Source: Halopseudomonas sabulinigri
GTDB taxonomy: Bacteria; Pseudomonadota; Gammaproteobacteria; Pseudomonadales; Pseudomonadaceae
Direction of reading: 5' to 3'
DNA length: 64,000 nt
Assembly (NCBI GenBank): GCA_011053055.1
Contig: DRHT01000015.1
Span: forward strand, 62,001 to 126,000
In this document: in pieces, positions 14,454-48,964 of the stretch
Position numbering within the stretch: the first letter of the stretch is position 1
How the letters are laid out: every line of letters begins with the position of its first letter
Program-made: the position numbers and the translations under genes
Notes under the pieces: generated by a model
What the model was told of the DNA's origin: nothing
The model's input: the letters and a program-made list of their open reading frames with translations, nothing else
The model's database searches: none

Positions 14454-14461
14454 TCACGCCT

Positions 14462-14668
14462 GCTTCAGGTTCCCTCTATTTAAAGAGGGTGAAACTGGGA
14501 AGCCGGTGCGTCTGTTCTGCAGACAATTCCGGCGCTGCCCCCGCAACGGTAAGCGACGTTCGCCACACGGCGATGCGCCTGACATAACCACTGTGCTCAG
14601 CATGGGAAGGTTCAGGACGCAGGATCAAATGATCCAGTCGCAAGCCCGGAGACCGGCCTGTTGCGAAT
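14462..14668 (+). ncRNA. cobalamin riboswitch
   Basis: The leader contains the class signatures in order: a G+A-rich ggtgaaactgggaagccggt segment, the gctgcccccgcaacggtaa core, and the B12 box agcccggagaccggcct near 14643-14659. It lies about 125 bases before the btuB start. In this family adenosylcobalamin or a related corrinoid represses expression of the downstream gene, here btuB and probably the whole operon. Confidence 0.95.
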
Positions 14669-14792
14669 CACAACGGTGCGGTGGGCGCTGTAGGTGCGCG
14701 GCCCTCCTATGCTTGTTGCCGTTCTCCTGCCTCCGTCACTGTTATTCTCAGTCAGTGTCGTGCGGGTGGGTACGACGGAGCAATTAAGCAGT

Positions 14793-16604: not shown

Positions 16605-16655
16605 GTTCTGCTGGACTATCACGCGTGCCGGTTCAGGGGAGTCGGCAGCCTGAGG

Positions 16656-16684
16656 CGTCTGTAGTCAATTTGATTACAGGCGTT
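16656..16684 (+). repeat. hairpin between btuB and the BtuM-like gene
   Basis: The arms cgtctgtagtc and gattacaggcg pair around a short A+T loop, with two G-T positions. There is no T run. It could partly insulate btuB from the biosynthetic genes or protect mRNA ends. Confidence 0.4.
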
Positions 16685-16710
16685 TCGCTGTTTCAATGAG
16701 GAGAATGAAT

Positions 16711-21547: not shown

Positions 21548-21555
21548 ACCGACTG

Positions 21556-24023: not shown

Positions 24024-24537
24024 ATTGATTCTGGGTGGCGCCCGCTCGGGTAAGAGCCGGTTGGCTGAGCGGCTAGCGGTTGAGTCTGGCCTCCCGGTGA
24101 CCTATATCGCCACGTGCCAGCCACGCGATCAGGAAATGGCCGAGCGGGTAGCGCGCCACAGTGAGCGGCGCCCGGCAGAGTGGGGGCTGGTGGAAGAGCC
24201 GTTGGCGTTGGCCCAAGTACTACGTGAACAGGCTGCACCAGGGCGTTGTTTACTGGTGGATTGCCTGACGTTATGGCTAAGCAATTTGCTGCTCAGCGCA
24301 GACAGCGAACATTGGCTACGCGAGCGACAGCAGCTATTCGATTGCCTGCCGTCTTTACCTGGGCGGTTGATTATGGTCAGTAATGAGACGGGCTTGGGCG
24401 TGGTTCCCATGGGAGAGCTGAGTCGCCGCTTCGTGGATGAGTCGGGTTGGTTACACCAGCAGTTGGCCGCGCACTGTGACCGGGTAGTGGTCTGTATTGC
24501 GGGCTTACCGCAGACCTTAAAAGGAGAGAAGGTGTGA
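24016..24537 (+). CDS. cobU: bifunctional adenosylcobinamide kinase / guanylyltransferase (CobU; CobP)
   Basis: A 173-residue enzyme that phosphorylates adenosylcobinamide and transfers GMP to it. The P-loop [12 protein letters not shown] starts at residue 7, the [17 protein letters not shown] segment holds the guanylylated His, and [14 protein letters not shown] and [11 protein letters not shown] are conserved. It overlaps the cobT start by 4 bases (GTGA). Confidence 0.96.
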
Positions 24538-25589
24538 GTGAAGCCTGGTGGCAAGCAGCAGCACGTGTTTCTGATGGAGGCCAGCGAGCACAAGCGCTGA
24601 CGCGACAGACGCAACTCACCAAACCGCAAGGGGCGCTTGGCAGGCTAGAGCAGCTAGCCGTCAATCTGGCAGGTTTGCAGGGGCGTAGCCAGCCCTCAGT
24701 TGAGCGTATCTGGATATCCATCTTCGCGGCTGATCACGGCATCGCGCAGGAGGGCGTTTCGGCCTATCCGCAGGAAGTGACCGGCCAGATGCTGGCAAAC
24801 TTTGTCCAGGGAGGCGCCGCCATCAGCGTATTGGCGCGGCATCTAGGGGCTGAACTCGAACTGTTGGACCTGGGCTTGGCGCACGAAGTGGCTGCATTAC
24901 CCGGCGTGCGCCACCTGAAGATAGCTGCAGGCACCGCCAACTTTCGACATCAATCTGCTATGACTAACGTGCAGTGTGCGCATGCGCTGTTGGCCGGTCG
25001 TGATGCAGTGTTGCGCAGTGTCGAGAACCGCATGGATTTGTTTGTCGGTGGCGACATGGGCATTGGTAATACCAGCAGCGCCTGCGCGCTCGCCAGTTTG
25101 CTGCTCAATCAACCGGTGGAGCGCTTGGTTGGTGCCGGCACGGGCATGAAAAGTGGTGGATTACAGCACAAAATTCGGGTGATCGAGGATGCGTTGAAAC
25201 TGCATCGCCCACACATCAAATCGCCACTGGATGCCTTGACGCGAGTCGGCGGGTTGGAGATAGCCGCGCTGGCTGGAGCCTATGTAGCGGCAGCGCAGGA
25301 GGGTGTGCCCGTATTAGTGGATGGCTATATTTGCTGTGCTGCCGCACTGTGCGCGACGCGCATGAACCCCGGTGTGGCTCCTTGGTTAATGTACAGCCAC
25401 CGCAGCGCCGAACCCTGCCACCAGCAATTGTTGGATGCGCTGGACGCCGAACCTTTGGTGGCCTTGGAGATGCGCTTGGGCGAGGCCAGCGGTGCGGCCG
25501 TTGCGGTGCCCTTGTTACAAGCAGCTTGCCGCCTGCATAACGAAATGGCGACCTTTCAGGAAGCAGCAGTTTCAGGCAGCTTACAATGA
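24534..25589 (+). CDS. cobT: nicotinate-nucleotide--dimethylbenzimidazole phosphoribosyltransferase (CobT; CobU)
   Basis: A 351-residue enzyme that activates the BluB product to alpha-ribazole phosphate. Signature stretches are TKPQGALGRLEQLA, FAADHGIAQEGVSAYPQEVT (as recognised), GDMGIGNTSSACAL and, near the end, EMRLGEASGAAVAVPLLQAA. GTG start at 24534 with AAGGAG upstream and a 4-base overlap with cobU. Together with bluB upstream and cobC/cobS downstream it completes lower-ligand assembly. Confidence 0.97.
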   Translation: MSEAWWQAAARVSDGGQRAQALTRQTQLTKPQGALGRLEQLAVNLAGLQGRSQPSVERIWISIFAADHGIAQEGVSAYPQEVTGQMLANFVQGGAAISVLARHLGAELELLDLGLAHEVAALPGVRHLKIAAGTANFRHQSAMTNVQCAHALLAGRDAVLRSVENRMDLFVGGDMGIGNTSSACALASLLLNQPVERLVGAGTGMKSGGLQHKIRVIEDALKLHRPHIKSPLDALTRVGGLEIAALAGAYVAAAQEGVPVLVDGYICCAAALCATRMNPGVAPWLMYSHRSAEPCHQQLLDALDAEPLVALEMRLGEASGAAVAVPLLQAACRLHNEMATFQEAAVSGSLQ

Positions 25590-26164
25590 CGGTACAGCTG
25601 GATTTTTTGCGCCACGGTGAAACCGAACTGGGCGGCGGTTTACGCGGCAGTCTAGATGATCCGCTCACCGCGTCGGGCTGGCAGCAAATGGACCAAGCAG
25701 TGGCGGTCGCATCAGGGTGGCAAGGTATTGTCAGTTCGCCATTGCAGCGCTGTGCGCGTTTTGCCGAGCACTTAGCAGAGCAGCGCGGCTTGCCTATTGA
25801 GTACAACGCCGATCTTCGTGAGCTGCACTTTGGCGAGTGGGAGGGCAAGCACCCGCGCGATTTGATGCTTACCCAGGCTGATGAATTAGGGCGGTTCTGG
25901 GCTGACCCTTATGGCTACACACCACCCGGTGCTGAGCCGATGCGGGACTTTGCCGCGCGCATAGACGCAGGGCTGCGGGTCTTGCATGAAGCGCACGCTG
26001 GCCAACGTCTGTTGGTGGTGTCGCATGCTGGGGTTATGCGGCTGCTGTTGGCACGTGCACGCGGGATGAAGCCTGCAACCTTGCTGCAGGTGGTGGTCGG
26101 CTATGCGGAGCTGGCGCGGCTAAAATACGATCCGCAGCAAGGGTTAAGCGAGGTCATGGGATGA
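25586..26164 (+). CDS. cobC: alpha-ribazole phosphatase, histidine phosphatase family
   Basis: A 192-residue histidine phosphatase. The catalytic RHGE motif (FLRHGETELGG) starts near residue 8 and the second His lies in VVSHAGVMRLLL. ELHFGEWEGKHPRDL matches CobC-like members. It probably removes the phosphate from alpha-ribazole phosphate or adenosylcobalamin phosphate. ATGA overlap upstream and 4-base overlap with cobS. Confidence 0.9.
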   Translation: MTVQLDFLRHGETELGGGLRGSLDDPLTASGWQQMDQAVAVASGWQGIVSSPLQRCARFAEHLAEQRGLPIEYNADLRELHFGEWEGKHPRDLMLTQADELGRFWADPYGYTPPGAEPMRDFAARIDAGLRVLHEAHAGQRLLVVSHAGVMRLLLARARGMKPATLLQVVVGYAELARLKYDPQQGLSEVMG

Positions 26165-26895
26165 TGCCGTTCGCGCTGGCTCTGCAGTTTCTCACCCGTT
26201 TGCCGGTGCGGTTGCGGCGTGCTCCTAGCCCGCAAGAGAGCGCTGAATCACTGCTTTGGTATCCCTTGGTTGGCGTAGTGCTGGGCGCACTGCTGCTATT
26301 GGTAAACGAGCTGCTAGCCGGTGTTGATGCCTCGCTGCGGGCCGCGTTGTTGCTCGCACTCTGGGTTTGGCTGAGCGGGGGGCTGCACTTGGATGGATTG
26401 GCAGATACCGTAGACGCATGGGTCGGTGGTTACGGCGATCGCGAACGCACCTTAGCAATAATGAAGGATCCGGCCTGCGGCCCCATGGGCGTACTTGCGC
26501 TCCTGTTCTGCCTGCTGCTGAAATACTGCGCACTGGTTCTGCTGTTGCAACAGCATTTCTGGAGCCTATTGTTGATTACGCCGTGGCTCGGGCGGTGCTT
26601 ATTACCGCTACTGCTACTGATCACGCCTTATGTTCGCGCTGGCGGTCTAGGTGAGAGTCTGACTAATGACATACCAAGGTTGCGACTGCAGCTGGTGTTA
26701 TTGCTGAACGCAGCCTTGCTTTTGTGCTTTGGTATGGCAGGTCTATTGACTTTGTTAGTTGCAGCTATATTGACCTGGTATTGGCGTCGGCTGTTGATTA
26801 AACGCCTTGGCGGTACCACCGGCGATACTGCGGGTGCTTTGCTTGAAATGGCAGAGTGCGCGGTGCTGGTGATTGCTGCCGTGCTGTTGCTTTAG
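26161..26895 (+). CDS. cobS: adenosylcobinamide-GDP ribazoletransferase (CobS; CobV)
   Basis: A 244-residue polytopic inner-membrane enzyme that joins adenosylcobinamide-GDP with alpha-ribazole, the last step of B12 assembly. The conserved GGLHLDGLADTVDAWVGG (about residues 74-91) includes the metal-binding acidic residues, and DPACGPMGVLALL follows. At least five hydrophobic helices are seen. It is the last gene of the riboswitch-led operon; no clear intrinsic terminator follows. Confidence 0.95.
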   Translation: MMPFALALQFLTRLPVRLRRAPSPQESAESLLWYPLVGVVLGALLLLVNELLAGVDASLRAALLLALWVWLSGGLHLDGLADTVDAWVGGYGDRERTLAIMKDPACGPMGVLALLFCLLLKYCALVLLLQQHFWSLLLITPWLGRCLLPLLLLITPYVRAGGLGESLTNDIPRLRLQLVLLLNAALLLCFGMAGLLTLLVAAILTWYWRRLLIKRLGGTTGDTAGALLEMAECAVLVIAAVLLL

Positions 26896-36631: not shown

Positions 36632-36711
36632 AAGCGCTACTTCAAGGTCACCGCGTATCACGCGGTGGGCGGGACTCTCACTTGCCGGCCAGCGCCGGAA
36701 TGGGGCACTTC

Positions 36712-39366
36712 ATGCGTACCGAACAACCCAAAACGATTTATCTGAAGGATTACCAGCAGCCTGACTACTGGATTGACGAGACCCAGCTGACCTTTGAACT
36801 GTTCGAAGATCACGCATTGGTGCATAGCCGTCTGAGTATGCGCCTGAATGCCGACAAGCCAGCAGCTAGCAGCCAGCCACCCTTGGTGCTGGATGGCCAG
36901 TTGCTTGAGCTGGTAAAAGTCGAACTCGACGATCAGCCGCTTGCCGCGGCGGACTATCAGGTCGATGACGATAGCCTGACGCTGCATCCGCAGGCCGCCA
37001 GTTTTGAACTCTCTATCACCACTCGCATCGAGCCGCAAAACAATACTGCGCTAGAGGGGCTCTACAAATCCGGGGGCATGTTCTGTACCCAGTGCGAAGC
37101 CGAAGGCTTCCGCAAAATCACTTACTACCTCGACCGCCCGGACGTCATGAGCCGGTTTACCACTACAGTGGTCGCTGATCGTGGCAACTACCCTGTGTTG
37201 CTGTCCAACGGCAACCCGATTGCCTCGGGTGAGCACGAGGGCGGTCGCCACTGGATCAGCTGGGAAGACCCTTTCCGTAAGCCGGCCTACCTGTTTGCTT
37301 TGGTCGCCGGTGATTTGTGCCTGCTGCAGGACAGTTTCGTGACCATGAGTGGCCGCGAGATCGATCTGCGTATTTACGTCGAGGCGGAAAACCGTGAACA
37401 GTGTGATCACGCCATGGACAGCCTGAAACGCTCTATGCGCTGGGATGAGGAAACCTACGGTCGTGAATACGACCTGGATATCTTTATGATCGTCGCTGTG
37501 AACGACTTCAACATGGGCGCGATGGAAAACAAAGGCCTGAACATCTTCAACTCCAGCTGTGTGTTGGCGCAGCAGGATACGGCGACTGACCTGGCTTTCC
37601 AGCGGGTTGAGGCGGTAGTGGCGCACGAATACTTCCACAACTGGTCAGGCAATCGGGTGACGTGCCGTGACTGGTTTCAGCTATCGCTGAAGGAAGGATT
37701 TACCGTGTTCCGTGACTCCGAATTTTCGTCAGACATGAACTCACGTACGGTCAAACGCATCGAAGACGTGACCTTTTTGCGGGCTAACCAGTTTGCCGAA
37801 GACGCTGGCCCGATGGCACATCCGGTACGCCCTGATTCCTTTATTGAAATCGCTAACTTCTACACACTGACAGTGTATGAAAAGGGCTCAGAAGTAGTGC
37901 GCATGCTGCATACCTTGCTGGGTGAGGACGGCTTCCGTAAGGGGACCGACCTGTATTTTGAGCGTCATGATGGTCAGGCAGTGACCTGCGATGACTTTAT
38001 ACAAGCGCTGGAAGATGCCAACGGCGCAGACTTCAGCCAGTTCAAACGCTGGTATAGCCAAGCCGGCACGCCACGGTTGGACGTGGCTAGTCACTACGAT
38101 GCGGCCAAGCGCGAATATCACCTTGGCTTCCGACAGCATTGCCCCGCAACACCGGGGCAGAGCGAAAAGCTGCCTCAGGTGATTCCGGTACGTATGGCGT
38201 TGCTAGATGGAGCGGGCAAAGAGTTGGCGCTACAGCTGAAAGGTGAGTCCGAGAGCTTGGGTAATGAGACTGTGCTGTCGATAACTGAAGCTGAGCAGGA
38301 GTTCGTCTTTAGCAATATCGAACAGCAACCCATGCCGTCGTTGCTGCGCGGCTTCTCAGCACCGGTCAAACTCAATTACCCCTATAGCCGGGATGATCGA
38401 GTGTTTTTGGCCAAGCACGACCCAGACGGCTTCAATCGTTGGGAAGCGGCGCAGGGGCTGGCGGTGGATGTACTGCACGGCTTGGTAGAAATTCATCGCG
38501 CGGGTCGACCGCTGCATTTGGATCAGCGTTTGGCCGAGGTTTATCGGACTGTGCTGGCGGATACTGCGCTGGACGCAGCCATGGTCGCAGAGCTAATCCG
38601 CTTGCCGTCCGAGGCCTATTTGGTTGAGTTGGCCGATACCGCCCATGTGGAGGCGATTCACTTCGCCCGCGAGTGGTTGCGCGGCGAGTTGGCACGCACG
38701 CTCAAAAGCGAACTGCAGCAACGCTTTGATAGTTTGCCGGCGGCTGAGCACTACAGCGCGGATGCTGCGTCTATGGCGACGCGCAGCCTGAAGAATACGC
38801 TGCTGAGTTACCTGATGTTGACTGAAGACCAAGCTGTCATGCATCTATGCGTACGGCAGTTTGTTGAGGCCAATAACATGACTGACCGGCAGGCCGCCTT
38901 GGTCGCCTTGGTTAACTCGCCTTTCGCGCAACAGCGCGAAGCGGCGTTGGAGCGTTTCGCCGAGCGTTGGGCAGCTTACCCGTTGGTGATGGATCAGTGG
39001 TTTAGCATTCAGGCCGGCAGCACCTTGCCCGGCGGGCTGGAGCGCGTAGAAGCGCTGATGCAACACTCGTTATTCACCCTGCGTAATCCGAACAAGGTGC
39101 GTGCCCTGATTGGCGCCTTCGCTAACCAGAACCTGGTCAACTTCCACCGTGCTGACGGCGCGGGTTATCGTTTTCTTGCCGATCGCATCATCGAACTGAA
39201 TAGCCTAAACCCGCAAATCGCCGCTCGGCTGGTTACCCCACTCAGCCGCTGGCGCAAGTTCGCCGAGGATCGTCAGCAGCTGATGCAACAAGAGCTGGCC
39301 CGCATAATGGCAACCGAAAAACTGTCTCCGGACGTTTACGAAGTGGTGAGTAAGTCGATGGTTTGA
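36712..39366 (+). CDS. pepN: aminopeptidase N
   Basis: An 884-residue M1 zinc aminopeptidase acting in cytoplasmic peptide turnover. The exopeptidase motif GAMEN is at residues 269-273 and the zinc site HEYFH at 305-309 with Glu328 in LKEGFTVFRD. The C-terminal half contains the DUF3458 Ig-like and helical ARM repeat domains, and the total length matches E. coli-type PepN. The ATG at 36712 (MRTEQPKTIYLKDY) was chosen on homology. It lies 80 bases after the DUF2797 gene. Confidence 0.97.
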   Translation: MRTEQPKTIYLKDYQQPDYWIDETQLTFELFEDHALVHSRLSMRLNADKPAASSQPPLVLDGQLLELVKVELDDQPLAAADYQVDDDSLTLHPQAASFELSITTRIEPQNNTALEGLYKSGGMFCTQCEAEGFRKITYYLDRPDVMSRFTTTVVADRGNYPVLLSNGNPIASGEHEGGRHWISWEDPFRKPAYLFALVAGDLCLLQDSFVTMSGREIDLRIYVEAENREQCDHAMDSLKRSMRWDEETYGREYDLDIFMIVAVNDFNMGAMENKGLNIFNSSCVLAQQDTATDLAFQRVEAVVAHEYFHNWSGNRVTCRDWFQLSLKEGFTVFRDSEFSSDMNSRTVKRIEDVTFLRANQFAEDAGPMAHPVRPDSFIEIANFYTLTVYEKGSEVVRMLHTLLGEDGFRKGTDLYFERHDGQAVTCDDFIQALEDANGADFSQFKRWYSQAGTPRLDVASHYDAAKREYHLGFRQHCPATPGQSEKLPQVIPVRMALLDGAGKELALQLKGESESLGNETVLSITEAEQEFVFSNIEQQPMPSLLRGFSAPVKLNYPYSRDDRVFLAKHDPDGFNRWEAAQGLAVDVLHGLVEIHRAGRPLHLDQRLAEVYRTVLADTALDAAMVAELIRLPSEAYLVELADTAHVEAIHFAREWLRGELARTLKSELQQRFDSLPAAEHYSADAASMATRSLKNTLLSYLMLTEDQAVMHLCVRQFVEANNMTDRQAALVALVNSPFAQQREAALERFAERWAAYPLVMDQWFSIQAGSTLPGGLERVEALMQHSLFTLRNPNKVRALIGAFANQNLVNFHRADGAGYRFLADRIIELNSLNPQIAARLVTPLSRWRKFAEDRQQLMQQELARIMATEKLSPDVYEVVSKSMV

Positions 39367-39636
39367 TCGATAATGCTGGCAACATGCTCTCCGGATAGGC
39401 CCGGAGGGCTTGAGTTAAGACCTAATAAATGAGTTACTTCGTATGCGCAAGGCCGATATTTTAATAAAAAATTACCAAGAGGTATTTGTGCAGTGTGTAG
39501 TAGGCCTCTAATATGCCTTGTCCGCTGGAGCGATAGCTGATTTGACGCTTGTCTTTCAGTTCTCCAAGCATGGCGACATCTGTTCATCGTTCCCTTGCGG
39601 AGCAGGGCACCTTATAAAAACAAAGAGGGGTGGTGT
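39367..39636. other. intergenic region before the YCF48/MMPL modules
   Basis: These 270 bases hold a short ctccgg/ccggag hairpin (39389-39406) just after pepN and A+T-rich sequence (39455-39480) that could carry the module promoter. No gene seen. The next gene has a GAGGGG ribosome-binding site. Confidence 0.5.
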
Positions 39637-40758
39637 ATGCGTAAGCCTATTAATTGGCGCGCTCCATTCATGGTTCGTGCGAACGCGTTTCAAACGACCA
39701 GCAAGCAAAATTTTCCTATTCGTTCAGTACTCTCGACGTTAGCGCTCTCTGCTGCCGTTGCGGGCTTTGCTATGCCTGGCGTCAGCCTGGCCGAGGCGGC
39801 TGAGGATATTAAACCCGCAGTTGAATCTGAGCTTTCCGCTTCCGACCTGCTGCTCGATGCGGCCCTGGTCGGCGAGCGCTTGGTCGCTGTGGGTAGTCGC
39901 GGTCATATTGTGTATTCCGACGACCAAGGCAGCAGCTGGAAACAAGCTGCTGTGCCGGTACGTCAGCTGCTGACCGCCGTTTACTTTGCGGACGACAAAA
40001 ACGGCTGGGCGGTAGGACACGATTCACTAATCCTGCACACCACCGATGGCGGCGCCAACTGGGCGATGCAGTATCGTGATCCAGAATTGGACGAAGCCTT
40101 GGACCCAGAAGGCCCCAGCTTGCTTGAGCGGCCGCTGATGGATGTCTGGTTCCGTGACGCCAAAACCGGTTTTGCCGTCGGAGCCTATGGCATTTTCTTG
40201 CGTACCGATGATGGTGGCGAGAACTGGCAAGACGTCAGTGATGTGGTTGATAACCCGGATGGTTTTCACTACAACTCGATCGCAGAGATCAAGGGCGCTG
40301 GTCTGTTTCTAGTTGGCGAGATGGGCACGATGTACCGCTCTGTTGACTATGGCGACACTTGGGAGACTCTGACCGACATGCCCTATGACGGCTCTTGGTT
40401 CGGTGTCTCTGGCACCAATCAGGAGAATCTTGTTCTGGTCTGGGGCCTGCGTGGCAACATGTATCGTTCAACCGATTTTGGTGACAGCTGGCAGCAGGTA
40501 GCCCTGAAAACCCAGAGCAACAACAAACTCGGCGCAACACTGCTGGGTGGCAGCGTCTCCGAGGCTGGCGAGTTGGCTGTAGTGGGGGCCGGCGGCGTGG
40601 TGGTCATTAGCCATGATGGTGGCAAAACCTTCAACGTCTCCACTCGTCCTGATCGTGTTGCCCTCGCGTCTGCCAAGGTGCTGAAAAACGGTCAGATCTT
40701 GCTTGTAGGCCAGAACGGCGTTTCTATTGCTGCCGCCAGCGGCCTCAAAGTTAACTGA
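39637..40758 (+). CDS. periplasmic YCF48-type beta-propeller protein, copy 1
   Basis: A 373-residue exported protein. The long signal peptide has a 30-residue polar n-region (MRKPINWRAPFMVRANAFQT) and cleaves near VSLA (about residue 50). The mature part is made of BNR/Asp-box-like blades: repeated SDDQGSSW, TTDGGANW, TDDGGENW, SVDYGDTW, STDFGDSW and SHDGGKTF motifs imply about seven blades, as in Ycf48. It is followed 27 bases later by an MMPL exporter gene. The conserved pairing suggests a periplasmic partner for that exporter. It is 60-65% identical by eye to copy 2 downstream. Confidence 0.88.
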   Translation: MRKPINWRAPFMVRANAFQTTSKQNFPIRSVLSTLALSAAVAGFAMPGVSLAEAAEDIKPAVESELSASDLLLDAALVGERLVAVGSRGHIVYSDDQGSSWKQAAVPVRQLLTAVYFADDKNGWAVGHDSLILHTTDGGANWAMQYRDPELDEALDPEGPSLLERPLMDVWFRDAKTGFAVGAYGIFLRTDDGGENWQDVSDVVDNPDGFHYNSIAEIKGAGLFLVGEMGTMYRSVDYGDTWETLTDMPYDGSWFGVSGTNQENLVLVWGLRGNMYRSTDFGDSWQQVALKTQSNNKLGATLLGGSVSEAGELAVVGAGGVVVISHDGGKTFNVSTRPDRVALASAKVLKNGQILLVGQNGVSIAAASGLKVN

Positions 40759-40785
40759 TAATAATTACAAGCGAGGAGAGTCTGG

Positions 40786-43161
40786 ATGTCCAGCGACCAG
40801 GAAAACGCAACTTTCATGGAACGGTTGGTCTTTAACAACCGCCTGATAGTTGTATTGTTGTTCTCTATTATTACTGTATTTCTCGGCTATCAGGCGCTGC
40901 AGGTTCGCCCTGATACCAGTTTCGGCAAGATGATTCCGCTGGAACACCCTTATATCGTCAACATGCTCGAGCACCAGGATGATCTGGCCAACCTCGGCAA
41001 CTCCATCCGTATTGCGGTGGCGATTGAAGATGGCGACATTTTCTCTACCGAGTACATGGAAACCCTCAAGCAGATTAACGATGAGGTGTTCTTCCTGCCG
41101 GGTGTAGACCGCTCCAATCTTCGCTCCCTGTGGACGCCAAACGTCCGCTGGACCGAGGTGACCGAGTACGGTTTTGACGGTGGTCCGGTAACCAATCACC
41201 CGTCTTACACCAATGAAGAAGATCTGGACGAATTGCGCGGCAACGTGCTCAAGTCCGGCGAAATTGGTCGTTTGGTTGGCAACAACTTCAAGTCCAGCAT
41301 CATCGAAGTGCCGTTGCAGGAGTTCTACCCGAACCCCGAGAATCAGAGCGAGCTGCTGCGGCTGGACTACAAGGAGTTTTCGCATCAGCTGGAAGAGAAA
41401 ATTCGTGATCGCTTTCAGGCTGACAATCCCAATATCAAGATTCACATCGTTGGTTTCGCCAAGAAAGTCGGTGATCTGATCGATGGTCTGATGGGGGTAG
41501 TGGCCTTCTTCGGTATTGCGTTCCTTATCACCTTCGTATTGCTGTACCTGTTTACCTGGTGTATCCGCAGTACGGTATCGGTACTGGTCACCACAGTTAT
41601 CGCGGTGATCTGGCAGTTGGGTCTGATCAATCTGGTCGGCTTCGGTCTGGATCCGTATTCGATGCTGGTGCCGTTCTTGATCTTTGCCATCGGTATTTCC
41701 CACGGGGTGCAAAAGATCAACGGTATTGCCTTGCAGTCAGGCGAAGCTGATAACGCCCTGACGGCAGCACGTCGCACATTCAGGCAGCTATTCCTGCCCG
41801 GTATGATCGCGATTCTGGCGGATGCGGTGGGCTTCATCACGCTGCTGGTTATGGATATCGGCGTGATTCATGAGCTGGCCATTGGTGCTTCCATCGGTGT
41901 GGCGGTTATCGTGTTCACCAACTTGATCATGCTGCCGGTAACCATCTCCTATCTGGGTATCAGCAAGAAGGCAATTGAGCGCAGCAAGCGTGATGCGGTG
42001 CGCGAGCACACATTCTGGCGCGCCCTCTCCAACGTGGCGCATCCAAGTTTCGCGCCGTGGATTGTGATTGTTGCTCTGGTTGGTGGTGTGGCTTGCTTCT
42101 TCTATCAGGAGCACAACATCAAGGTCGGTGACCTGGATGCCGGCGCCCCCGAGTTGCGGCCTGATTCACGCTATAACCTGGACAATGACTTCATCATTCA
42201 GAACTATTCGACCAGCTCGGACATTCTGGTTGTTATGGTCAGCACGCCAGCAGAGAAGTGCTCTGCTTACGAAACCATGGAAGCCATCGACCAGTTGCAG
42301 TGGAAGATGAACAACCTTGAAGGTGTGCAGTCTGCCGTCTCGCTGGTAACCGTGGCCAAACAAGTGCTGATGGGTAACAACGAGGGCAACCTGAAATGGC
42401 AAGGCTTATCGCGTAACCAGGATAACCTGAACAACGCGATCAGCCGTGCACCGTCCGGTATGTTCAACGCTGCTTGCTCACTGGCGCCGGTGATGATCTT
42501 CCTGGATGACCACAAGGCTGACACCCTGACCCGCGCTACCGATGCGGTTAAGGAATTCGCTGCCGAGTACAACACAGATGAGCTCGAATTCAAGCTGGCT
42601 GCAGGTAATGCCGGTATCGAAGCGGCGACTAACGATGTTATCTCCAGCTCCGAGCTGCTGATTCTCTCATTGGTGTACATCTGGGTTGGCATCATGTGCA
42701 TGATGACCTTCCGCTCATTCCCGGCGACCATCTGTATCTTACTGCCGCTGGTTCTGACCTCGGTGATGGGTAACGCGCTGATGGCCTTCCTGGGGATTGG
42801 TATGAAGGTGGCAACGCTGCCGGTAATTGCCCTTGGTGTAGGTGTGGGTGTCGACTACGGTATTTATATCTACAGTCGCCTTGAGAGTTTCTTGCGCGCG
42901 GGTATGCCGCTGCAGGAAGCCTACTATGAAACCCTGCGCTCTACCGGTAAGGCAGTACTCTTCACTGGTCTGTGTTTGGCCATCGGTGTGGCAACCTGGA
43001 TATTCTCCGCCATCAAGTTCCAGGCGGATATGGGTCTGATGTTGACCTTCATGTTCCTGGTCAACATGTTGGGTGCCATGCTGTTGCTGCCGGCTCTGGC
43101 GCGCTTCCTGATCAATCCTGAAAAGGTTCGCAAGTCTAAAGGCAGCAAGATGAGTCACTGA
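40786..43161 (+). CDS. MMPL/RND-superfamily exporter, copy 1
   Basis: A 791-residue inner-membrane RND/MMPL protein. Twelve helices in two halves: TM1 at about 17-37, a first periplasmic loop (about 40-225), five helices to about 400, TM7 near 425-445, a second periplasmic loop (about 450-615) and five more helices. An acidic proton-relay-like GVGVDYGIYIYSRLE lies in the second half, as in MmpL/HpnN proteins. The C-terminus is short and basic. No membrane-fusion protein or outer-membrane channel is nearby; the YCF48 protein is the likely partner. Such proteins export lipids or hydrophobic compounds; substrate unknown. Confidence 0.9.
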   Translation: MSSDQENATFMERLVFNNRLIVVLLFSIITVFLGYQALQVRPDTSFGKMIPLEHPYIVNMLEHQDDLANLGNSIRIAVAIEDGDIFSTEYMETLKQINDEVFFLPGVDRSNLRSLWTPNVRWTEVTEYGFDGGPVTNHPSYTNEEDLDELRGNVLKSGEIGRLVGNNFKSSIIEVPLQEFYPNPENQSELLRLDYKEFSHQLEEKIRDRFQADNPNIKIHIVGFAKKVGDLIDGLMGVVAFFGIAFLITFVLLYLFTWCIRSTVSVLVTTVIAVIWQLGLINLVGFGLDPYSMLVPFLIFAIGISHGVQKINGIALQSGEADNALTAARRTFRQLFLPGMIAILADAVGFITLLVMDIGVIHELAIGASIGVAVIVFTNLIMLPVTISYLGISKKAIERSKRDAVREHTFWRALSNVAHPSFAPWIVIVALVGGVACFFYQEHNIKVGDLDAGAPELRPDSRYNLDNDFIIQNYSTSSDILVVMVSTPAEKCSAYETMEAIDQLQWKMNNLEGVQSAVSLVTVAKQVLMGNNEGNLKWQGLSRNQDNLNNAISRAPSGMFNAACSLAPVMIFLDDHKADTLTRATDAVKEFAAEYNTDELEFKLAAGNAGIEAATNDVISSSELLILSLVYIWVGIMCMMTFRSFPATICILLPLVLTSVMGNALMAFLGIGMKVATLPVIALGVGVGVDYGIYIYSRLESFLRAGMPLQEAYYETLRSTGKAVLFTGLCLAIGVATWIFSAIKFQADMGLMLTFMFLVNMLGAMLLLPALARFLINPEKVRKSKGSKMSH

Positions 43162-43176
43162 TAGTCTGCTTGCAGT

Positions 43177-43207
43177 AAAAAAACCCGCCGCGATTGGCGG
43201 GTTTTTT
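43177..43207 (+). terminator. terminator after module 1
   Basis: A perfect aaaaaacccgcc / ggcgggtttttt stem with a six-base loop and T run, 15 bases after the first exporter. It implies that the second module has its own promoter in the 180 bases that follow. Confidence 0.92.
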
Positions 43208-43391
43208 ATGCGCGTAGAACTCGCTGTGAAATGAACTGTTACTTGATATTGCGGGTAAATTCGTCGAACTGTTATCAGTTTGCTGATTAACAAAAGATAA
43301 CCGCGACCCGTTGGCGAGCGGGGTCTGTCCTCGTTAGTATGGTTGATTCCGTCTAGTTGGCGGCTTCTGACAATAATAAGGGGAATGGCGT

Positions 43392-44522
43392 ATGCGTGAG
43401 CGCATCGAGGGGCGCACTCAATCTACAGTCCAGGCAGTTTGCCCGATTTCAGATCTGAAACTCCGCAAGCATTTTATTGGCCGGCCAGCGCTGCGTGCTT
43501 TTGGCTTGGCTGCTGTGCTATTGGCACCGGCAGGCGCCGTTATGGCTCAGGACGCACAACCAATCGCTGAGGCACCCAAGCCCGCAATCATGTCTGACCT
43601 CGCCAGCCAGGTATTGCTGCTTGATGTGGTCACTGCAGGTGAGCGTCTGGTAGCCGTAGGCAGCCATGGGCATATCGTGTATTCGGATGACCAGGGCGAG
43701 AACTGGACTCAGGCAGAGGTGCCGGTGCGGCAGGTGCTTACGGCGGTGTACTTCGTGGATGCTGAGAACGGCTGGGCAGTAGGTCACGATTCGATGATTC
43801 TGCACAGCAGCGATGCAGGTCAGAGTTGGGAGCTGCAATACCGCGATCCGGCACTTGATAAGCCGGTTGATCCCGAAGGGCCAGGCCTGTTGGAGCGTCC
43901 GTTGATGGATGTTTGGTTCCGCGATGCGCAGACCGGCTTTGCCGTGGGCGCATACGGTATTTTCCTGCGCACAGATGATGGCGGGGCCAACTGGGAGGAT
44001 CGCAGCGACAGCGTCGATAACGAGTACGGTATGCACTACAACGCTATTGCCCCGATCCACAATGCTGGCCTGTTTATGGTCGGTGAGATGGGCAGTATGT
44101 ATCGCTCTTCCGATTACGGTGACACCTGGGAAACCCTCGACAATTCCCCCTATGACGGAACCTGGTTCGGTATTTCAGGCACGGGGCAGACGGGTCAACT
44201 GTTGGTTTGGGGCTTGCGCGGCAATCTCTTTCGCTCAGAAAACTTTGGCTATACCTGGCAGCCAGTGGAGTTCAGCAATCGCGCCCCGAGAGCCACCTTG
44301 TTGGGCGGTAACCTCTCTGCCGATGGCAAGCTAGCAGTGGTAGGCGCTGGCGGCGTGGTGCTCACCAGCGATGATCACGGCAAGACCTTCGAGGCACATA
44401 CCCGTGCAGATCGGGTAGCACTAGCAACCGCCAAACGTCTACCCGATGGCCAGCTGTTGCTGGTTGGACAGCACGGTGTAGTCAGGGCCTCGGCCAATGG
44501 CCTTAAAGACGAACAACAATAA
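43392..44522 (+). CDS. periplasmic YCF48-type beta-propeller protein, copy 2
   Basis: A 376-residue paralogue of the protein 3.7 kb upstream. The extended signal peptide (polar n-region of about 35 residues, cleavage near AVMA, about residue 53) is unlike copy 1 in sequence, whereas the propeller is well conserved, including the EGPGLLERPLMDVWFRDA and VGHDSMILHSSDAGQSW regions. Strong ribosome-binding site AAGGGGA. 20 bases before its own MMPL partner. Confidence 0.88.
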   Translation: MRERIEGRTQSTVQAVCPISDLKLRKHFIGRPALRAFGLAAVLLAPAGAVMAQDAQPIAEAPKPAIMSDLASQVLLLDVVTAGERLVAVGSHGHIVYSDDQGENWTQAEVPVRQVLTAVYFVDAENGWAVGHDSMILHSSDAGQSWELQYRDPALDKPVDPEGPGLLERPLMDVWFRDAQTGFAVGAYGIFLRTDDGGANWEDRSDSVDNEYGMHYNAIAPIHNAGLFMVGEMGSMYRSSDYGDTWETLDNSPYDGTWFGISGTGQTGQLLVWGLRGNLFRSENFGYTWQPVEFSNRAPRATLLGGNLSADGKLAVVGAGGVVLTSDDHGKTFEAHTRADRVALATAKRLPDGQLLLVGQHGVVRASANGLKDEQQ

Positions 44523-44542
44523 ATTTTCGCCGGAGAATCTGG

Positions 44543-46894
44543 ATGTCAAAGCACCATCAGGAGACCGCACCCTTCGTGGAGCGGCTGATTTTCAATAATC
44601 GGATTGCAGTACTGCTGATCTTTGCGTTACTCACCGCGTTTTTCGGATATCAGGCAGCGCAGGTCAAGCCCGATACCAGCTTCGAGAAGATGATTCCTCT
44701 CAAGCATCCCTATGTCGTTAACATGATCGAGCATGAGAACGACCTGCCAAACCTCGGCAACTCTATCCGTATTGCGGTTGAGATCGAAGATGGTGACATC
44801 TTTTCTGCCGAGTATATGGATATGCTCAAGCGCATTAATGATGAAGTGTTTTTCCTGCCGGGCGTAGACCGTTCCAATCTGCGCTCGCTGTGGACCCCTA
44901 ATGTGCGCTGGACCGAAGTGACCGAGTACGGTTTCGACGGTGGCCCGGTAGCCAATCGGCCGTCCTATTCCAGCGAAGAGGATTTGGACGAGCTGCGTGC
45001 CAACGTACTTAAATCCGGTGAAATTGGTCGCTTGGTAGGCAATAACTTCAAGTCAACCATCATTGATGTGCCGCTGCAGGAGGCTTATCCCAACCCGGAT
45101 AACCAAAGCGAGCTGATTCAGCTCGACTACGGTGACTTCTCGCGGCAGTTGGAAGAGAAGATACGTCAGCACTTCGAGGCAGAAAATCCCAACATCAAGG
45201 TGCATATCGTTGGTTTCGCCAAAAAGGTCGGCGACTTGATTGAAGGCATCATCAAAGTTGTTATGTTCTTCGGCGCTGCGCTGTTGATCACCTTTGTGCT
45301 GTTGATGATGTTCACCCGTTGTATCAAGAGCTCGCTGACCACGTTGGCCTGCTCGGTTATCGCGGTGGTTTGGCAGTTGGGTTTGTTGCGCACCTTGGGT
45401 TTTGGGCTTGATCCTTACTCAATTCTGGTGCCGTTTCTGGTGTTCGCCATCGGTATTTCCCACGGTGTGCAAATCATCAATGGCATGGCTATTGAGTATC
45501 CGACCTCGCAGGGCAGTTACGATGCGGCGCGCCGCGCGTTCCGGTCTTTGTACATTCCAGGCATAGTTGCGCTGATTTCGGACGCGGTGGGCTTTGTAAC
45601 GCTGCTGCTGATTGAAATTGAGGTGATTCGCGAACTGGGTATCGCTGCTTCCATCGGTGTAGGTGTGATTATTCTCACCAACCTGATGTTGCTGCCAATT
45701 CTGATGTCCTACATCGGTCTTAGCAAAAGCGCGGTTGAGCGCAATCGCGATCGTGCTTCACGGCCACAGAAACTCTGGTTGGCAGTCGCGAAGTTTGCGC
45801 ATCCGTCAGTTGCTCCCATTTCGGTTTTACTGGCCATACTGGCGTTCGCTTTCGGTATCTACCACGGCAAAAACGTGGCCATCGGTGACCTTGATCCAGG
45901 TGCGCCGGAGTTGCGTGCTGACTCGCGCTATAACTTGGACAACAAGTTCATTATCGACAACTACTCGACCAGTTCGGACATTTTGGTGGTCATGGTCAAA
46001 ACGCCGGATGAAATGTGTTCTGCGCATTCGACGATGGAAGCCATTGACGACCTGGAATGGAAGATGAACAACCTGGATGGCGTGCAGTCAGCGGTATCGC
46101 TGGTGACGGTAGCCAAGCAGGTGATCATGGGTAACAACGAGGGCAACCTGAAATGGCAGGGTCTGTCGCGTAACCAGGACAATCTGAACAACGCCATCAG
46201 CCGCGCACCTTCAGGTATGTTCAACGCCGCCTGCTCGTTGGCTCCGGTGATGATCTTCCTCGACGACCACAAGGCAGCCACGCTCACCCGCGCTACCTCT
46301 GCGGTGGAGGAGTTTGCTGCTGAGTACAACACCGATACGATGGAGTTCAAGCTGGCAGCAGGTAACGCTGGTATCGAAGCTGCTACCAACGTGGTGATCG
46401 AGGCTTCGCAAACCAAGATGCTGCTCACCGTGTACGCGGTAGTGATCTTCATGTGTCTGGTGACCTTCCGATCGATCCGCGCGGTGCTGTGTATCATCAT
46501 TCCGCTGGCTCTGACTTCGGTACTGGCCAACGCGTTGATGGCGTTCCTGGGTATTGGCGTGAAGGTGGCAACTCTGCCGGTGATCGCTTTGGGTGTAGGT
46601 ATCGGGGTGGATTACGGTATCTATATCTATAGCCGACTGGAAAGCTATCTGCGTCAGGGTTTGCCGCTGCAGGAGGCCTACTACGAAACGCTGAAGACCA
46701 CGGGTAAGGCGGTGACCTTCACCGGTTTCACTCTGGCCATTGGTGTGGCCACCTGGATCTTCTCGGCCATCAAGTTCCAGGCCGACATGGGTATCTTGCT
46801 GACCTTCATGTTCCTCTGGAATATGTTCGGCGCACTCTGGTTACTGCCAGCACTGGCTCGCTTCCTGATTCGTCCGGATAAGTTGCGTAAGTAA
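44543..46894 (+). CDS. MMPL/RND-superfamily exporter, copy 2
   Basis: A 783-residue paralogue of the exporter at 40786-43161 with the same two-fold, 12-helix layout. The periplasmic loops are the best conserved parts: the first contains a near-identical LRSLWTPNVRWTEVTEYGFD block, the second a nearly invariant stretch of about 70 residues. GVGIGVDYGIYIYSRLE marks the second transmembrane half. It lacks the last eight basic residues of copy 1. Preceded by GGAGAA, followed by a perfect terminator. Probably works with the adjacent YCF48 protein; substrate unknown. Confidence 0.9.
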   Translation: MSKHHQETAPFVERLIFNNRIAVLLIFALLTAFFGYQAAQVKPDTSFEKMIPLKHPYVVNMIEHENDLPNLGNSIRIAVEIEDGDIFSAEYMDMLKRINDEVFFLPGVDRSNLRSLWTPNVRWTEVTEYGFDGGPVANRPSYSSEEDLDELRANVLKSGEIGRLVGNNFKSTIIDVPLQEAYPNPDNQSELIQLDYGDFSRQLEEKIRQHFEAENPNIKVHIVGFAKKVGDLIEGIIKVVMFFGAALLITFVLLMMFTRCIKSSLTTLACSVIAVVWQLGLLRTLGFGLDPYSILVPFLVFAIGISHGVQIINGMAIEYPTSQGSYDAARRAFRSLYIPGIVALISDAVGFVTLLLIEIEVIRELGIAASIGVGVIILTNLMLLPILMSYIGLSKSAVERNRDRASRPQKLWLAVAKFAHPSVAPISVLLAILAFAFGIYHGKNVAIGDLDPGAPELRADSRYNLDNKFIIDNYSTSSDILVVMVKTPDEMCSAHSTMEAIDDLEWKMNNLDGVQSAVSLVTVAKQVIMGNNEGNLKWQGLSRNQDNLNNAISRAPSGMFNAACSLAPVMIFLDDHKAATLTRATSAVEEFAAEYNTDTMEFKLAAGNAGIEAATNVVIEASQTKMLLTVYAVVIFMCLVTFRSIRAVLCIIIPLALTSVLANALMAFLGIGVKVATLPVIALGVGIGVDYGIYIYSRLESYLRQGLPLQEAYYETLKTTGKAVTFTGFTLAIGVATWIFSAIKFQADMGILLTFMFLWNMFGALWLLPALARFLIRPDKLRK

Positions 46895-46910: not shown

Positions 46911-46944
46911 CACCAAAAAGGCGCCTCCGGGCGCCTTTTTGGTG
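46911..46944 (+). terminator. terminator after module 2
   Basis: A perfect 15-base stem caccaaaaaggcgcc / ggcgcctttttggtg with loop tccg, 17 bases after the exporter stop. Confidence 0.93.
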
Positions 46945-47296: not shown

Positions 47297-48964
47297 TCAA
47301 ACATCCGGATACAACGGCTGCATCCCTCCATCAGTCGCCTCAGCCGCTTCCCGCTGACGCGACTGGGTGACTTGCCGCACCGCACGCCACAGGGGCTTAC
47401 CGCGCCAGGCGCTGTCGTTCTGGCCGAACAGGCAGGTATTCAAATCATCAAGGGCATCGGCTAGCACAGGGTATTGCTGGCTGAGTGCGATGAGGTCACT
47501 TTCTTGCTGCTTGGCCCAATGCTCTAGTGCTTTGCGCGCATCAGCTGGCTGGTTCTGGCGGCAGGCTACTTGGAGGTCGGCTAAGGGGTTGCCGGCGACA
47601 TCGGCATCCAGGTGTTCGGTGTCTTCGTGCAGCTCATCCAGGCTACGCAATTGCCTGCGTAGTTGGCGTAGGCGATAGATACAAGCAGCTAGCGCGGCCA
47701 GCAGCAGGGCGCAGGCCAGCTGCCAGGGCCACAGCAGCGCCACGGGCTCTACGTTGCGGTTACGCTCGCTGGCCGGCGTGCTGGGGCCGACGTTCTGATT
47801 GTTGAGTATGTTCAGACTGACGGCCGGCAAGCTGGCTTTCTCGAGCTTGTCGGTACTTATATTCCACCAGGGCACGCTGACTTCTGGCACCGCAAGCTGG
47901 CCAGTGCTGCGCGCTACCAGCGCAGCGCTTTCCTGACGCAAGCCAAGAATACCGTTGGCCGATAGTTGGTTTTCCAGCTGTGGCTGGTCGTTGTACTGAC
48001 GGAGGTCTTCGGACTGCTCATCGGAAAGCCGGCCCAGTTCGGGCAGTTGGCTCGCGGTTAGGCCGTCAGCTTGAATGGATAGCGTGCGGGTCAAGGGCTC
48101 ACCGCGCAATAGGTCCTGGTCGGGGTCTGGTTGCCAGTTCTGACTCAGCCGCACCTGTTTAGCGGGTAACCAGAGCGCATTTGCGGGGTAGCTTTCAGGG
48201 ATAGGCTTAACATCAAGTTGCATGCTGGGTGAGCGCAGTTGAACCATGCGTGCGGTGTGTGGGCTATTTGGATCTGTTGGGTTGCGCGGCAACTGTACCG
48301 TGGCGCTGAACAGCTGTGAGGGGATATCCAGGGTTCCGCTCTTTTGCGGGAAGATGGCATAACGCACCTCAATCACCCCGTGCAGCACGCCGTTGATCGT
48401 GCGCTCATAGTTGCGGGGGGCGCCTAGCCGTTCAATTTTGGCATTGGGTATGTCTAGCCCGCTGAGATCGGAGTCGTCATACAGGGAAACGGAGTGATAA
48501 ACACGCAGGGTCAGTAACACCTGAGCCTGCACGTAAGGTGTCTCGGTATCCACTTCGCTGTCGATGAAAATGGGGGCTAGTTTGCCGGCTTCGTCATCGT
48601 CTGCTTGTGCCTCGGTGAGCACCCGCAGCGTAATTGGATCGCTGCTGTCAGGGCCAAGAAAAAGTGGCGGTATGACGACGAAACCTGTGCGTTTTGGCTG
48701 CAACCCGATCACCCATCGGTTGACCCATTGCTTGCGACCTTCCAATTCGCTCAGCAGGCTAAGCTGATGGCTCTGGGTGACGTTAAAGTGTTCATGCAAA
48801 GGTGTGAGATCGGGCGGACCATACTTGCTCCCGGCGTTGCTCTCTATCGTTAGTTCAAGGAGATCGCCTTCTACCAACTGGGTGCGGTCAACACTGGCCT
48901 GCATCGCCGCCTGGCAAAGGCCGGTTAGCATCAGCAGGCAAAGTGTCAACAGCAATCGCATCAT
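47297..48964 (-). CDS. batD: BatD-like oxygen tolerance protein
   Basis: A 555-residue membrane-anchored periplasmic protein. Signal peptide at about 1-19 (GLCQAA), Ig-like N-terminal repeats beginning ASVDRTQLVEGDLLELTIE, a long periplasmic region, a transmembrane helix near residues 428-446 (LALLAALAACIYRL region) and a cytoplasmic helical tail. It is the last gene of the MoxR/Bat operon and overlaps the VWA-TPR gene by 4 bases. Bat proteins are thought to form a membrane-associated chaperone or stress complex with MoxR. Confidence 0.9.
   Translation of the reverse strand: MMRLLLTLCLLMLTGLCQAAMQASVDRTQLVEGDLLELTIESNAGSKYGPPDLTPLHEHFNVTQSHQLSLLSELEGRKQWVNRWVIGLQPKRTGFVVIPPLFLGPDSSDPITLRVLTEAQADDDEAGKLAPIFIDSEVDTETPYVQAQVLLTLRVYHSVSLYDDSDLSGLDIPNAKIERLGAPRNYERTINGVLHGVIEVRYAIFPQKSGTLDIPSQLFSATVQLPRNPTDPNSPHTARMVQLRSPSMQLDVKPIPESYPANALWLPAKQVRLSQNWQPDPDQDLLRGEPLTRTLSIQADGLTASQLPELGRLSDEQSEDLRQYNDQPQLENQLSANGILGLRQESAALVARSTGQLAVPEVSVPWWNISTDKLEKASLPAVSLNILNNQNVGPSTPASERNRNVEPVALLWPWQLACALLLAALAACIYRLRQLRRQLRSLDELHEDTEHLDADVAGNPLADLQVACRQNQPADARKALEHWAKQQESDLIALSQQYPVLADALDDLNTCLFGQNDSAWRGKPLWRAVRQVTQSRQREAAEATDGGMQPLYPDV

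Follow-up and report, generated by a model that had tools for sequence, protein, structure and literature searches.

A tandem propeller-pump locus of Halopseudomonas sabulinigri with a probable mosaic pump

Two pairs of genes, each encoding a YCF48 propeller and an MMPL pump, lie in tandem on the + strand of a 64-kb stretch of Halopseudomonas sabulinigri DNA (the window), flanked by what we take to be pepN and a batD-like operon. How did one cell come to hold both pairs, and what do they serve? A preliminary description read them as the tandem duplication of one exporter module. The features of the locus are:

36682..39366, + strand: conserved upstream neighbour, presumably pepN (earliest listed start)
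39622..39630, + strand: ribosome-binding-like run 5′ of YCF48-A (read directly)
39637..40758, + strand: YCF48-A, propeller of 373 aa with an N-terminal export-signal-like stretch, native to the genus (ORF, Pfam, trees)
40773..40779, + strand: ribosome-binding-like run 5′ of MMPL-A (sequence)
40786..43161, + strand: MMPL-A, RND-type pump of 791 aa, a mosaic of native and foreign-type segments (ORF, Pfam, trees)
41460..42200, + strand: foreign-type segment 1 of MMPL-A, TM2-TM7, approximate (site string and two-state segmentation)
42580..43134, + strand: foreign-type segment 2 of MMPL-A, TM8-TM12, approximate (site string and two-state segmentation)
43178..43207, + strand: terminator-like hairpin and T run after pair A (z = -3.9)
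43378..43383, + strand: ribosome-binding-like run 5′ of YCF48-B (sequence)
43392..44522, + strand: YCF48-B, propeller of 376 aa with an N-terminal export-signal-like stretch (ORF, Pfam, model)
44532..44536, + strand: ribosome-binding-like run 5′ of MMPL-B (sequence)
44543..46894, + strand: MMPL-B, native pump of 783 aa with a predicted RND fold (ORF, Pfam, model, trees)
46911..46944, + strand: terminator-like hairpin and T run after pair B (z = -6.9)
47297..48964, - strand: conserved downstream neighbour, which we take to be a batD-like gene (ORF and neighbour conservation)

The start of YCF48-A was taken as the ATG at 39637; the list of open reading frames has an earlier TTG at 39595. The head-to-tail arrangement of the preliminary description was confirmed by the open reading frames, by Pfam, and by the identity between copies (62% for the propellers and 73% for the pumps). 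Its ribosome-binding sites and terminators were also recovered: purine runs precede all four starts, and downstream of each pair lie a hairpin and a T run, although a pattern scan for terminators returned the pair-B hairpin only, not that of pair A. The signal peptides had been said to have diverged, and A and B are indeed 32% identical over the first 68 residues; this level is ordinary, given that the same stretch in the window is 43% (B) and 38% (A) identical to the L007 orthologues (75% and 87%, respectively, for the nearer L006 orthologues).

Both pumps belong to PF03176 (MMPL; MMPL-A: 100.4 bits; MMPL-B: 118.2 bits; gathering cut-off 20.5), and both propellers to PF14870 (YCF48-like; YCF48-A: 94.3 bits; YCF48-B: 89.5 bits; cut-off 27). 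TIGR00921 (HAE3 RND) is the top-scoring NCBIfam family for the pumps, although the scores (141.9 and 153.3 bits) lie below its curated cut-off of 351.9. The propellers share PF14870 with the photosystem II assembly factor Ycf48, but lie far under the cut-off of its equivalog NF010237 (98.1 and 90.6 bits vs. 326). The model of MMPL-B (pLDDT 84.8, pTM 0.79) has the two membrane-helix repeats and two large periplasmic domains of a predicted RND fold, which its identity to MMPL-B would extend to MMPL-A. Structural matches cover residues 5-783 and include NCR1 (8qee; Z = 41.4, rmsd 4.6, 700 aligned) and MmpL5 (9b46; Z = 41.3, rmsd 3.5, 684 aligned). The model of YCF48-B matches seven-bladed propellers (the design 7big: Z = 28.2, rmsd 2.7, 272 aligned), and YCF48-A is expected to fold in the same way. 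The pumps share the fold of other MMPL/RND pumps (MmpL4/5, NCR1/NPC1, Patched, SecDF) along the chain, but with 10-15% identity among the matches listed, and they differ from them in having a paired propeller and a Ser-His in TM4. Asp is usual in this stretch of MMPL/RND pumps; the Ser-His (residues 306-307) is invariant across the alignment (45 of 45 sequences).

Comparisons of RND pumps usually treat the protein as one unit. The full-length pump tree contains one A clade and one B clade, joined as a single clade (95), and from this tree we initially favoured a plain tandem duplication of the propeller-pump pair, with periplasmic parts under purifying selection and membrane parts accelerated, as the tandem order and the identities between copies would also suggest. 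This explanation fell once the segments were analysed apart; it is now largely refuted, and we regard it as very improbable. The periplasmic domains of MMPL-A (limits in MMPL-B: PD1, residues 41-230; PD2, residues 446-610) group with MMPL-B of their own genus (tree support 100), and most of its membrane domain nests within other Pseudomonadaceae genera. The grouping of A with B was rejected in the membrane part (p-AU = 0.0002), and that of A with donor-like pumps was rejected in the periplasmic part (p-AU = 1.8e-70); these decisive tests were run on 65 of 79 rows (LG+G4, quick search), with group labels chosen once earlier trees were known. The best match of MMPL-A outside the genus is 91% over TM2-6; to MMPL-B the figure is 61%. 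The nearest sequence found reaches the 91% over TM2-6 only. Judged from its sequence, MMPL-A is a mosaic of native periplasmic domains and a mostly foreign-type membrane domain. By sequence, too, both propellers and the periplasmic domains of both pumps are native, and the membrane domain of MMPL-B is that of the genus's own lineage.

Distances and conserved sites follow the same division. The comparison covered 18 two-pump genomes; G001, G023, and G030, in which the pump genes are divided between contigs, are not among them. In the periplasmic domains, the p-distance between A and B of one genome is comparable to that between orthologues (0.158 and 0.154, vs. 0.125 and 0.160 for A-A, 0.113 and 0.133 for B-B, and 0.34 and 0.32 for outgroups); in the membrane parts it exceeds the outgroup level (0.367 vs. 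0.30). The claim that the loops had not diverged thus holds for the periplasmic domains of the pumps. Conserved periplasmic sites comprise 30 shared-derived sites and no A-B difference, as against 4 and 50, respectively, in the membrane parts (Fisher's exact test: P = 9e-19), a disparity that speaks against plain duplication; in a circular-shift control, 7 of the 772 shifts, the zero shift among them, reached the observed contrast. Two-state segmentation of the site string places the switches near domain borders, with an uncertainty of about 15 codons for the switch points of segment 1. TM1 looks native (4 native vs. 1 foreign-type site), so the swap is smaller than the whole membrane domain.

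When the four segments were treed singly, the best topologies alternated along the pump. The single-segment AU tests mostly fall short of significance (TM2-7: A+B, P = 0.052, B+near, P = 0.179; TM8-12: A+B, P = 0.118, B+near, P = 0.173; PD1: A+near, P = 0.062, B+near, P = 0.034; PD2: A+near, P = 0.031), and it is the combined parts and wider sampling that decide. Combined-part trees had 44 chosen rows and single-segment trees 41; of the wider-sampled trees, the first omitted four near-duplicates and the second ten further rows (L193 being present as L196). Contig-end or split loci (L142, L143, L153, L156, L157, L158, and L159) were excluded from the early trees of the periplasmic/membrane split. 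With far outgroups left out, the mixed ancestry of MMPL-A is invisible. For the periplasmic tree, the data do not reject a monophyletic A (P = 0.122). We looked for ongoing gene conversion at synonymous sites and in distances within and between genomes, and saw no sign of it. The A-B periplasmic distance within genomes (0.156) is hardly smaller than that between genomes (0.164), so homogenisation of the periplasmic parts is no longer active; and since pS of the window pump pair is about 0.6 and nearly equal in the periplasmic and membrane parts, the periplasmic replacement appears to be old, without a DNA-level tract.

The propellers have a history different from that of the pumps, which also argues against duplication of the pair as one event. 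Unlike the pumps, propellers A and B of the window clade are each other's sisters (100/99). When propeller segments were treed separately, the second half (93) and the N-terminal part (84) joined them, but the first half alone did not. First-position propellers as one clade gave p-AU values of 0.027 and 0.040, a modest result, and a grouping of those of L130, L131, L132, and L141 is not rejected (P = 0.417). Two pumps share the locus with one propeller in 8 of the 37 genomes of the window genus, so that a dedicated propeller for each exporter, as had been proposed, is found in the window but not in these eight, where a search of the rest of the genome (E up to 1e-3) brought up no spare propeller. 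MMPL and YCF48 counts are equal in 28 of the 37 genomes, and a propeller deficit of one or two occurs in exactly the same eight (contig-end pump pieces G001 C6, G030 C30:1-873, G023 C56 and C95, G026 C70 and C182, and G028 C83 were excluded; the apparent extra propeller of G026 adjoins such a piece). The propeller-less second pump might simply be idle. We first explained the single propeller by a loss, the ancestor having had four genes, but a model of insertion lets the one-propeller arrangement be ancestral.

RND pumps are often oligomers, the two pump genes are adjacent, and their periplasmic domains are closely similar, all of which would favour a pump that needs both A and B subunits. B stands alone at the locus in 13 of the 37 genomes, however, and A in one, and the obligate form of the heteromeric system once suggested is highly unlikely, although the two may still associate facultatively. 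A deeper paralogy, with both pump types in the family ancestor, periplasmic domains exchanged by conversion, and differential loss in each genus, would dispense with transfer, and in other genera the membrane type at the locus is A-like in some pumps and different in others, even inside one genus group. Against it, the membrane part of A lies several nodes deep beside particular pumps of group g14 (96 and 95) and is not basal, and many losses would be required among the 330 genomes outside the genus with a match (each listed with one match to a pump like these, E up to 1e-60); we consider it unlikely. We prefer a history by insertion: a foreign pump gene would have been inserted downstream of pepN, in front of the resident propeller-pump pair; resident sequence would have taken the place of its periplasmic domains, probably through gene conversion from the neighbour, and the propeller would later have been duplicated in front of the incoming pump.

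The exporters had been described as lacking a fusion protein and an outer-membrane channel. The interval from pepN to the batD-like gene contains no gene for either, and the locus does not encode a tripartite HAE1 exporter; the lack does not extend to the genome, in which 7 DUF1329 and 4 DUF1302 genes lie away from the locus, bearing out the suggestion that such genes be sought elsewhere. The four adjacent genes of an AmeABCD-type cassette are absent from the window locus (YCF48-MMPL twice only) and present in the third cassette of the genome (C20), in the order DUF1302-DUF1329-YCF48-MMPL. The partner families of an AmeABCD-type system are encoded in the genome. Other genera have this complete order at the same pepN site. 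MMPL is present in 125 of the 148 genomes and DUF1329 in exactly those, and 45 of 46 genomes with one MMPL gene have at least two DUF1329 genes.

The locus probably provides, in two versions, the inner-membrane hub of an envelope system of the DUF1302/DUF1329/YCF48/MMPL kind that transports hydrophobic compounds, and would have the mosaic history given above. We read it as the energised hub of a system of the AmeABCD or PP_0765-0766-2018-2019 type; the docking surfaces would be common to both versions and the membrane halves would differ. The propeller and the LolA-like DUF1329 shuttles would dock on the periplasmic domains, and most of the shuttles would have as partner a DUF1302 outer-membrane barrel whose gene lies elsewhere. 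The proton-coupled membrane domain would be the interchangeable half. The cell may thereby gain two pumps with differing membrane-side properties and one common set of periplasmic partners. Different cargo for the two pumps, as first proposed, fits membrane halves that are their main difference.

The membrane domain of the hub could also be a mobile module, recombined between Pseudomonadaceae genera while the periplasmic domains stay with the lineage and match the resident propeller and DUF1329 shuttles; other genera would have swapped it in place and the window genus kept both. We rate this broader proposal a little short of an even chance. In line with a mobile module, the membrane parts of pumps from one group (g14 or g15) are 23-28% different from each other but 87-89% identical to those of pumps from the other group; identities in the periplasmic parts (82-86%) show no such split. 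Three-way site counts in other genera argue against it: the periplasmic native signal is unclear (G551: PD1, 12 native to 18 foreign; PD2, 13 to 7), and clean alternation is seen only in the window genus.

At this locus, evolution would have split a periplasmic docking part from a membrane part near domain borders, with one cell retaining both versions: a natural experiment on the role of each pump half, in which the periplasmic part is common and the membrane part differs. Two questions become testable, namely to which targets the propeller and the DUF1329 shuttles bind, and whether the membrane half determines substrate or energy coupling. The locus also supports a hub-and-spoke view, with many DUF1302/DUF1329 pairs sharing one or two pumps. 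This system is widespread, has uncertain cargo, and has been reported in users of terpenes, benzene, and fatty esters. We found no description of a mosaic pump of this kind in the open-access papers searched, and among the matches listed for Halopseudomonas, RND, and MMPL, all concern actinobacterial MmpL-type pumps.

PP_2018 and PP_2019 of Pseudomonas putida are presumably orthologous to the window locus. We consider it somewhat more likely that the system carries hydrophobic nutrients or intermediates inwards, to the inner membrane, than that it exports. The neighbours of DUF1329 genes in the window genome (FadL-type, AMP-binding, and thiolase genes for some; for others, a region that includes genes for enoyl-CoA hydratase, short-chain dehydrogenase, and P450) fit uptake or processing without proving it, and PP_0765, PP_0766, PP_2018, and PP_2019 of P. 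putida are reported to be essential for growth on Tween 20 (PMC10866462). Efflux of toxic hydrophobic compounds, which is compatible with the mosaic history, is nevertheless quite possible, if rather less than an even prospect: an ameABCD deletion mutant of Castellaniella defragrans had higher Nile Red accumulation and lower monoterpene tolerance, and the authors infer export from dye accumulation (PMC6394551).

The same paper describes AmeABCD as DUF1302 outer-membrane, DUF1329 LolA-like periplasmic, and COG4447 (photosystem-assembly-factor-like) periplasmic proteins with an HAE3-lineage RND pump (PMC6394551), the four families of the C20 cassette. The window locus differs in having only YCF48 and MMPL, twice, with DUF1302 and DUF1329 elsewhere and a probable mosaic in MMPL-A; the likeness is by description. 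In P. putida, predicted contacts are strong for PP_2018-PP_2019 and weak for PP_0766-PP_2019 and PP_0766-PP_0765; judged by locus number, the DUF1302/DUF1329 genes are likewise separate from those for the periplasmic protein and the pump, but one pump is named there (PMC10866462), as against two in the window. The benzene "Nanopod" cluster of ORM2a similarly combines DUF1329, a YCF48-related protein, and an MMPL transporter in one expressed cluster, but in a Desulfobacterota strain and, in the accessible text, with no mention of duplication (PMC13101534). We take PA3080 to be the YCF48 gene at this locus. One report lists a PA3080 transposon mutant among attenuated mutants (PMC2714965).

We compared the pumps of the two propeller-pump pairs (A and B) that lie head to tail after pepN and before a batD-like gene, in contig C15 of the 3.8-Mb genome:

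39637-40758, + strand: YCF48-A, propeller gene of the first pair
40786-43161, + strand: MMPL-A, pump gene of the first pair
43392-44522, + strand: YCF48-B, propeller gene of the second pair
44543-46894, + strand: MMPL-B, pump gene of the second pair

Within the 18 genomes carrying both pumps, the periplasmic domains (PD1 and PD2) of A and B were as similar as orthologues, whereas their membrane parts were more divergent than those of different genera. Conserved periplasmic sites held 30 changes common to A and B relative to outgroups and no fixed A-B differences, against 4 common changes and 50 fixed differences at membrane sites (Fisher P = 9e-19); of 772 shifts of the domain labels along the gene, 7 (counting the zero shift) reached the observed contrast. 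Late duplication followed by fast membrane evolution predicts many shared membrane changes, instead of the 4 found, and is thus unlikely. When distant outgroups were included under a mixture model, the membrane part rejected a grouping of A with B (p-AU = 0.010) and the periplasmic part recovered it (100/100). Segment trees placed A with nine other-genus pumps for TM2-7 and TM8-12 (99 and 100) and with B for PD1 and PD2 (99.9 and 97); this alternation is seen in the best trees, most matching AU tests of the four segments being >0.05.

In the membrane part of a 79-row tree, A fell inside the other-genus pumps, beside that of G720 and then those of G088, G733, and G619, of genus group g14 (nodes 95 and 96), and B fell outside the other sampled Pseudomonadaceae; the periplasmic part united A and B (100). 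For 65 of the 79 rows (LG+G4, quick search), A with B was rejected in the membrane part (p-AU = 0.0002) and A with donors in the periplasmic part (p-AU = 1.8e-70). We also scored the sites at which A matches exactly one of two references, B (native, the genus's own type) and the pump of locus L193 (foreign, donor-like).

MMPL-A sites matching one reference, native:foreign
TM1, 4:1
PD1, 40:10
TM2-6, 4:50
Loop and TM7, 4:18
PD2, 35:4
TM8-12, 5:25

The switches lie near residues 220-234, 465-480, and 600. A's TM2-6 found matches (E up to 1e-60) in 362 of 398 genomes of the family: two in 19 genus genomes, one in 13, and one each in the 330 non-genus genomes listed. The top non-genus match (91%) was nearer than some same-genus A copies (84-100%). 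Among g14 and g15 loci (L173, L189, L191, and L196-L212), hub pumps (hub: inner-membrane pump) of one genus group comprise two membrane types, with no such split in periplasmic identities. Membrane-domain exchange, these sequences suggest, extends past the window's genus to g14 and g15.

Locus states were examined in 37 genomes of the genus, including the window's own. With Y a propeller gene and M a pump gene, we found pepN-Y-M-Y-M in 13 (assembled from separate contigs for G001 and G023, the latter without its pepN side in view), pepN-M-Y-M in eight (G030 pieced across contigs), pepN-M-Y in one, and Y-M in 13 (the G026 contig begins just upstream); the locus was not found in two genomes, both incomplete. 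Locus L136 (G025) is the sole case seen in the genus of MMPL-A and a propeller without MMPL-B. MMPL and YCF48 counts were equal in 28 of the 37; the eight M-Y-M genomes had one propeller fewer than pumps (G033: two fewer), and G026 had one surplus propeller, adjoining a pump fragment left out of the count. No spare propeller was found elsewhere in the M-Y-M genomes at E up to 1e-3. Therefore, a single propeller can accompany two pumps, and either pump can occur singly.

The propellers of the genus are monophyletic to the exclusion of those belonging to 17 other pumps, donors among them (100/100). Within the window's own clade, the two propellers pair with each other (100/99), which indicates a late origin, or late overwriting, of the second copy; a tree built on the propeller's first half only did not recover this pairing, and a single clade of first-position propellers was modestly rejected (p-AU = 0.027 and 0.040). 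The simplest history we propose is that a foreign pump gene was inserted upstream of a resident propeller and pump, that its periplasmic domains were replaced with resident sequence, and that the propeller would have been duplicated afterwards in some lineages. Some losses of pump A also took place, as shown by the Y-M loci L149 and L151/L152, which sit within groups of M-Y-M genomes on the B side of the pump tree.

Gene families, identities, ribosome-binding sites, and terminators of both pairs agreed, on re-examination, with the preliminary description. Its statement that the pumps lack outer-membrane and fusion proteins holds at the locus, but the DUF1302/DUF1329 search it suggested found seven DUF1329 and four DUF1302 genes elsewhere in the genome. 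A distant third YCF48-MMPL pair (contig C20, pump identity 47%) belongs to a complete DUF1302-DUF1329-YCF48-MMPL cassette, in a stretch that also carries glyoxalase-superfamily, enoyl-CoA hydratase, short-chain dehydrogenase, P450, and flavoprotein genes; FadL-type barrel, AMP-binding enzyme, and thiolase genes lie near one DUF1329 gene. Positions 7573-15028 of locus L162 (G000 contig C12) hold two tandem DUF1302-DUF1329 pairs with an AraC-type regulator gene in between, a further local duplication within this four-family system. The four-gene set occupies the pepN site itself in P. benzenivorans (L025), P. segetis (L026), Parendozoicomonas (L042, L043), Sansalvadorimonas (L044), and five g14 genomes (L196-L200), and is incomplete at the remaining other-genus pepN sites.

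Among 148 Pseudomonadaceae genomes of at least 95% completeness, MMPL and DUF1329 each occurred in 125, identical by handle, and DUF1302 in 135. Five of 19 genera lacked both MMPL and DUF1329, so co-absence represents few independent events. With at most seven MMPL and 12 DUF1329 candidates scored per genome, DUF1329 outnumbered MMPL in 124 of the 125 and equaled it in one; 45 of the 46 one-MMPL genomes had at least two DUF1329 genes, and 14 at least four. Because DUF1329 genes outnumber MMPL genes and the two co-occur across genomes, our reading is that one pump hub may serve several DUF1302/DUF1329 pairs (spokes). Ten genomes (G045, G047, G048, G052, G060, G062, G066, G071, G074, and G082) had one DUF1302, no MMPL hub, and no DUF1329 matches; their DUF1302 is perhaps a separate subtype.

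The gene families and system type are already known. Castellaniella AmeABCD is described as comprising the same four families, its deletion weakening growth on apolar monoterpenes (PMC6394551); all are present in the window's genome, whereas the locus itself holds YCF48 and MMPL only. In P. putida, PP_0765, PP_0766, PP_2018, and PP_2019 are reported as essential on Tween 20, with strong predicted contacts for PP_2018-PP_2019 and weak ones for PP_0766-PP_2019 and PP_0766-PP_0765 (PMC10866462), and a DUF1329-YCF48-MMPL cluster is reported as expressed in a benzene-degrading consortium (PMC13101534). Inward transport would suit the Tween 20 requirement (PMC10866462); outward transport is argued by the Castellaniella authors, who regard AmeABCD as an exporter (PMC6394551). 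The periplasmic domains of A and B would dock the native propeller and shuttles, and their having stayed native is as expected from such docking; the MMPL-A membrane domain could then be foreign while the periplasmic domains keep a native fit. The literature searched yielded no description of a split hub whose two pumps have mixed ancestry, and the mosaic adds to the published frame native periplasmic domains alongside a foreign-capable membrane domain.

The closest named relative of MMPL-B is from Pseudomonas neustonica (96%) and the next closest are from Halopseudomonas species, which makes Halopseudomonas the probable genus of the window. The predicted structure of MMPL-B is an RND pump (pLDDT 84.8), similar to NCR1 (Z = 41.4, rmsd 4.6, 700 aligned) and MmpL5 (Z = 41.3, rmsd 3.5, 684 aligned); YCF48-B is a predicted propeller (pLDDT 87.8) with seven-bladed top structural matches. 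TM4 of RND pumps typically contains Asp. Since that stretch is invariably Ser-His (MMPL-B residues 306-307, 45/45 aligned sequences), the lineage may use an asymmetric proton relay; the TM10 stretch is Asp-Tyr (residues 690-691, 45/45). Elsewhere in the window (14694-26895), a TonB-receptor-like gene precedes a gene run resembling, by eye, a cobalamin biosynthesis and salvage cluster.
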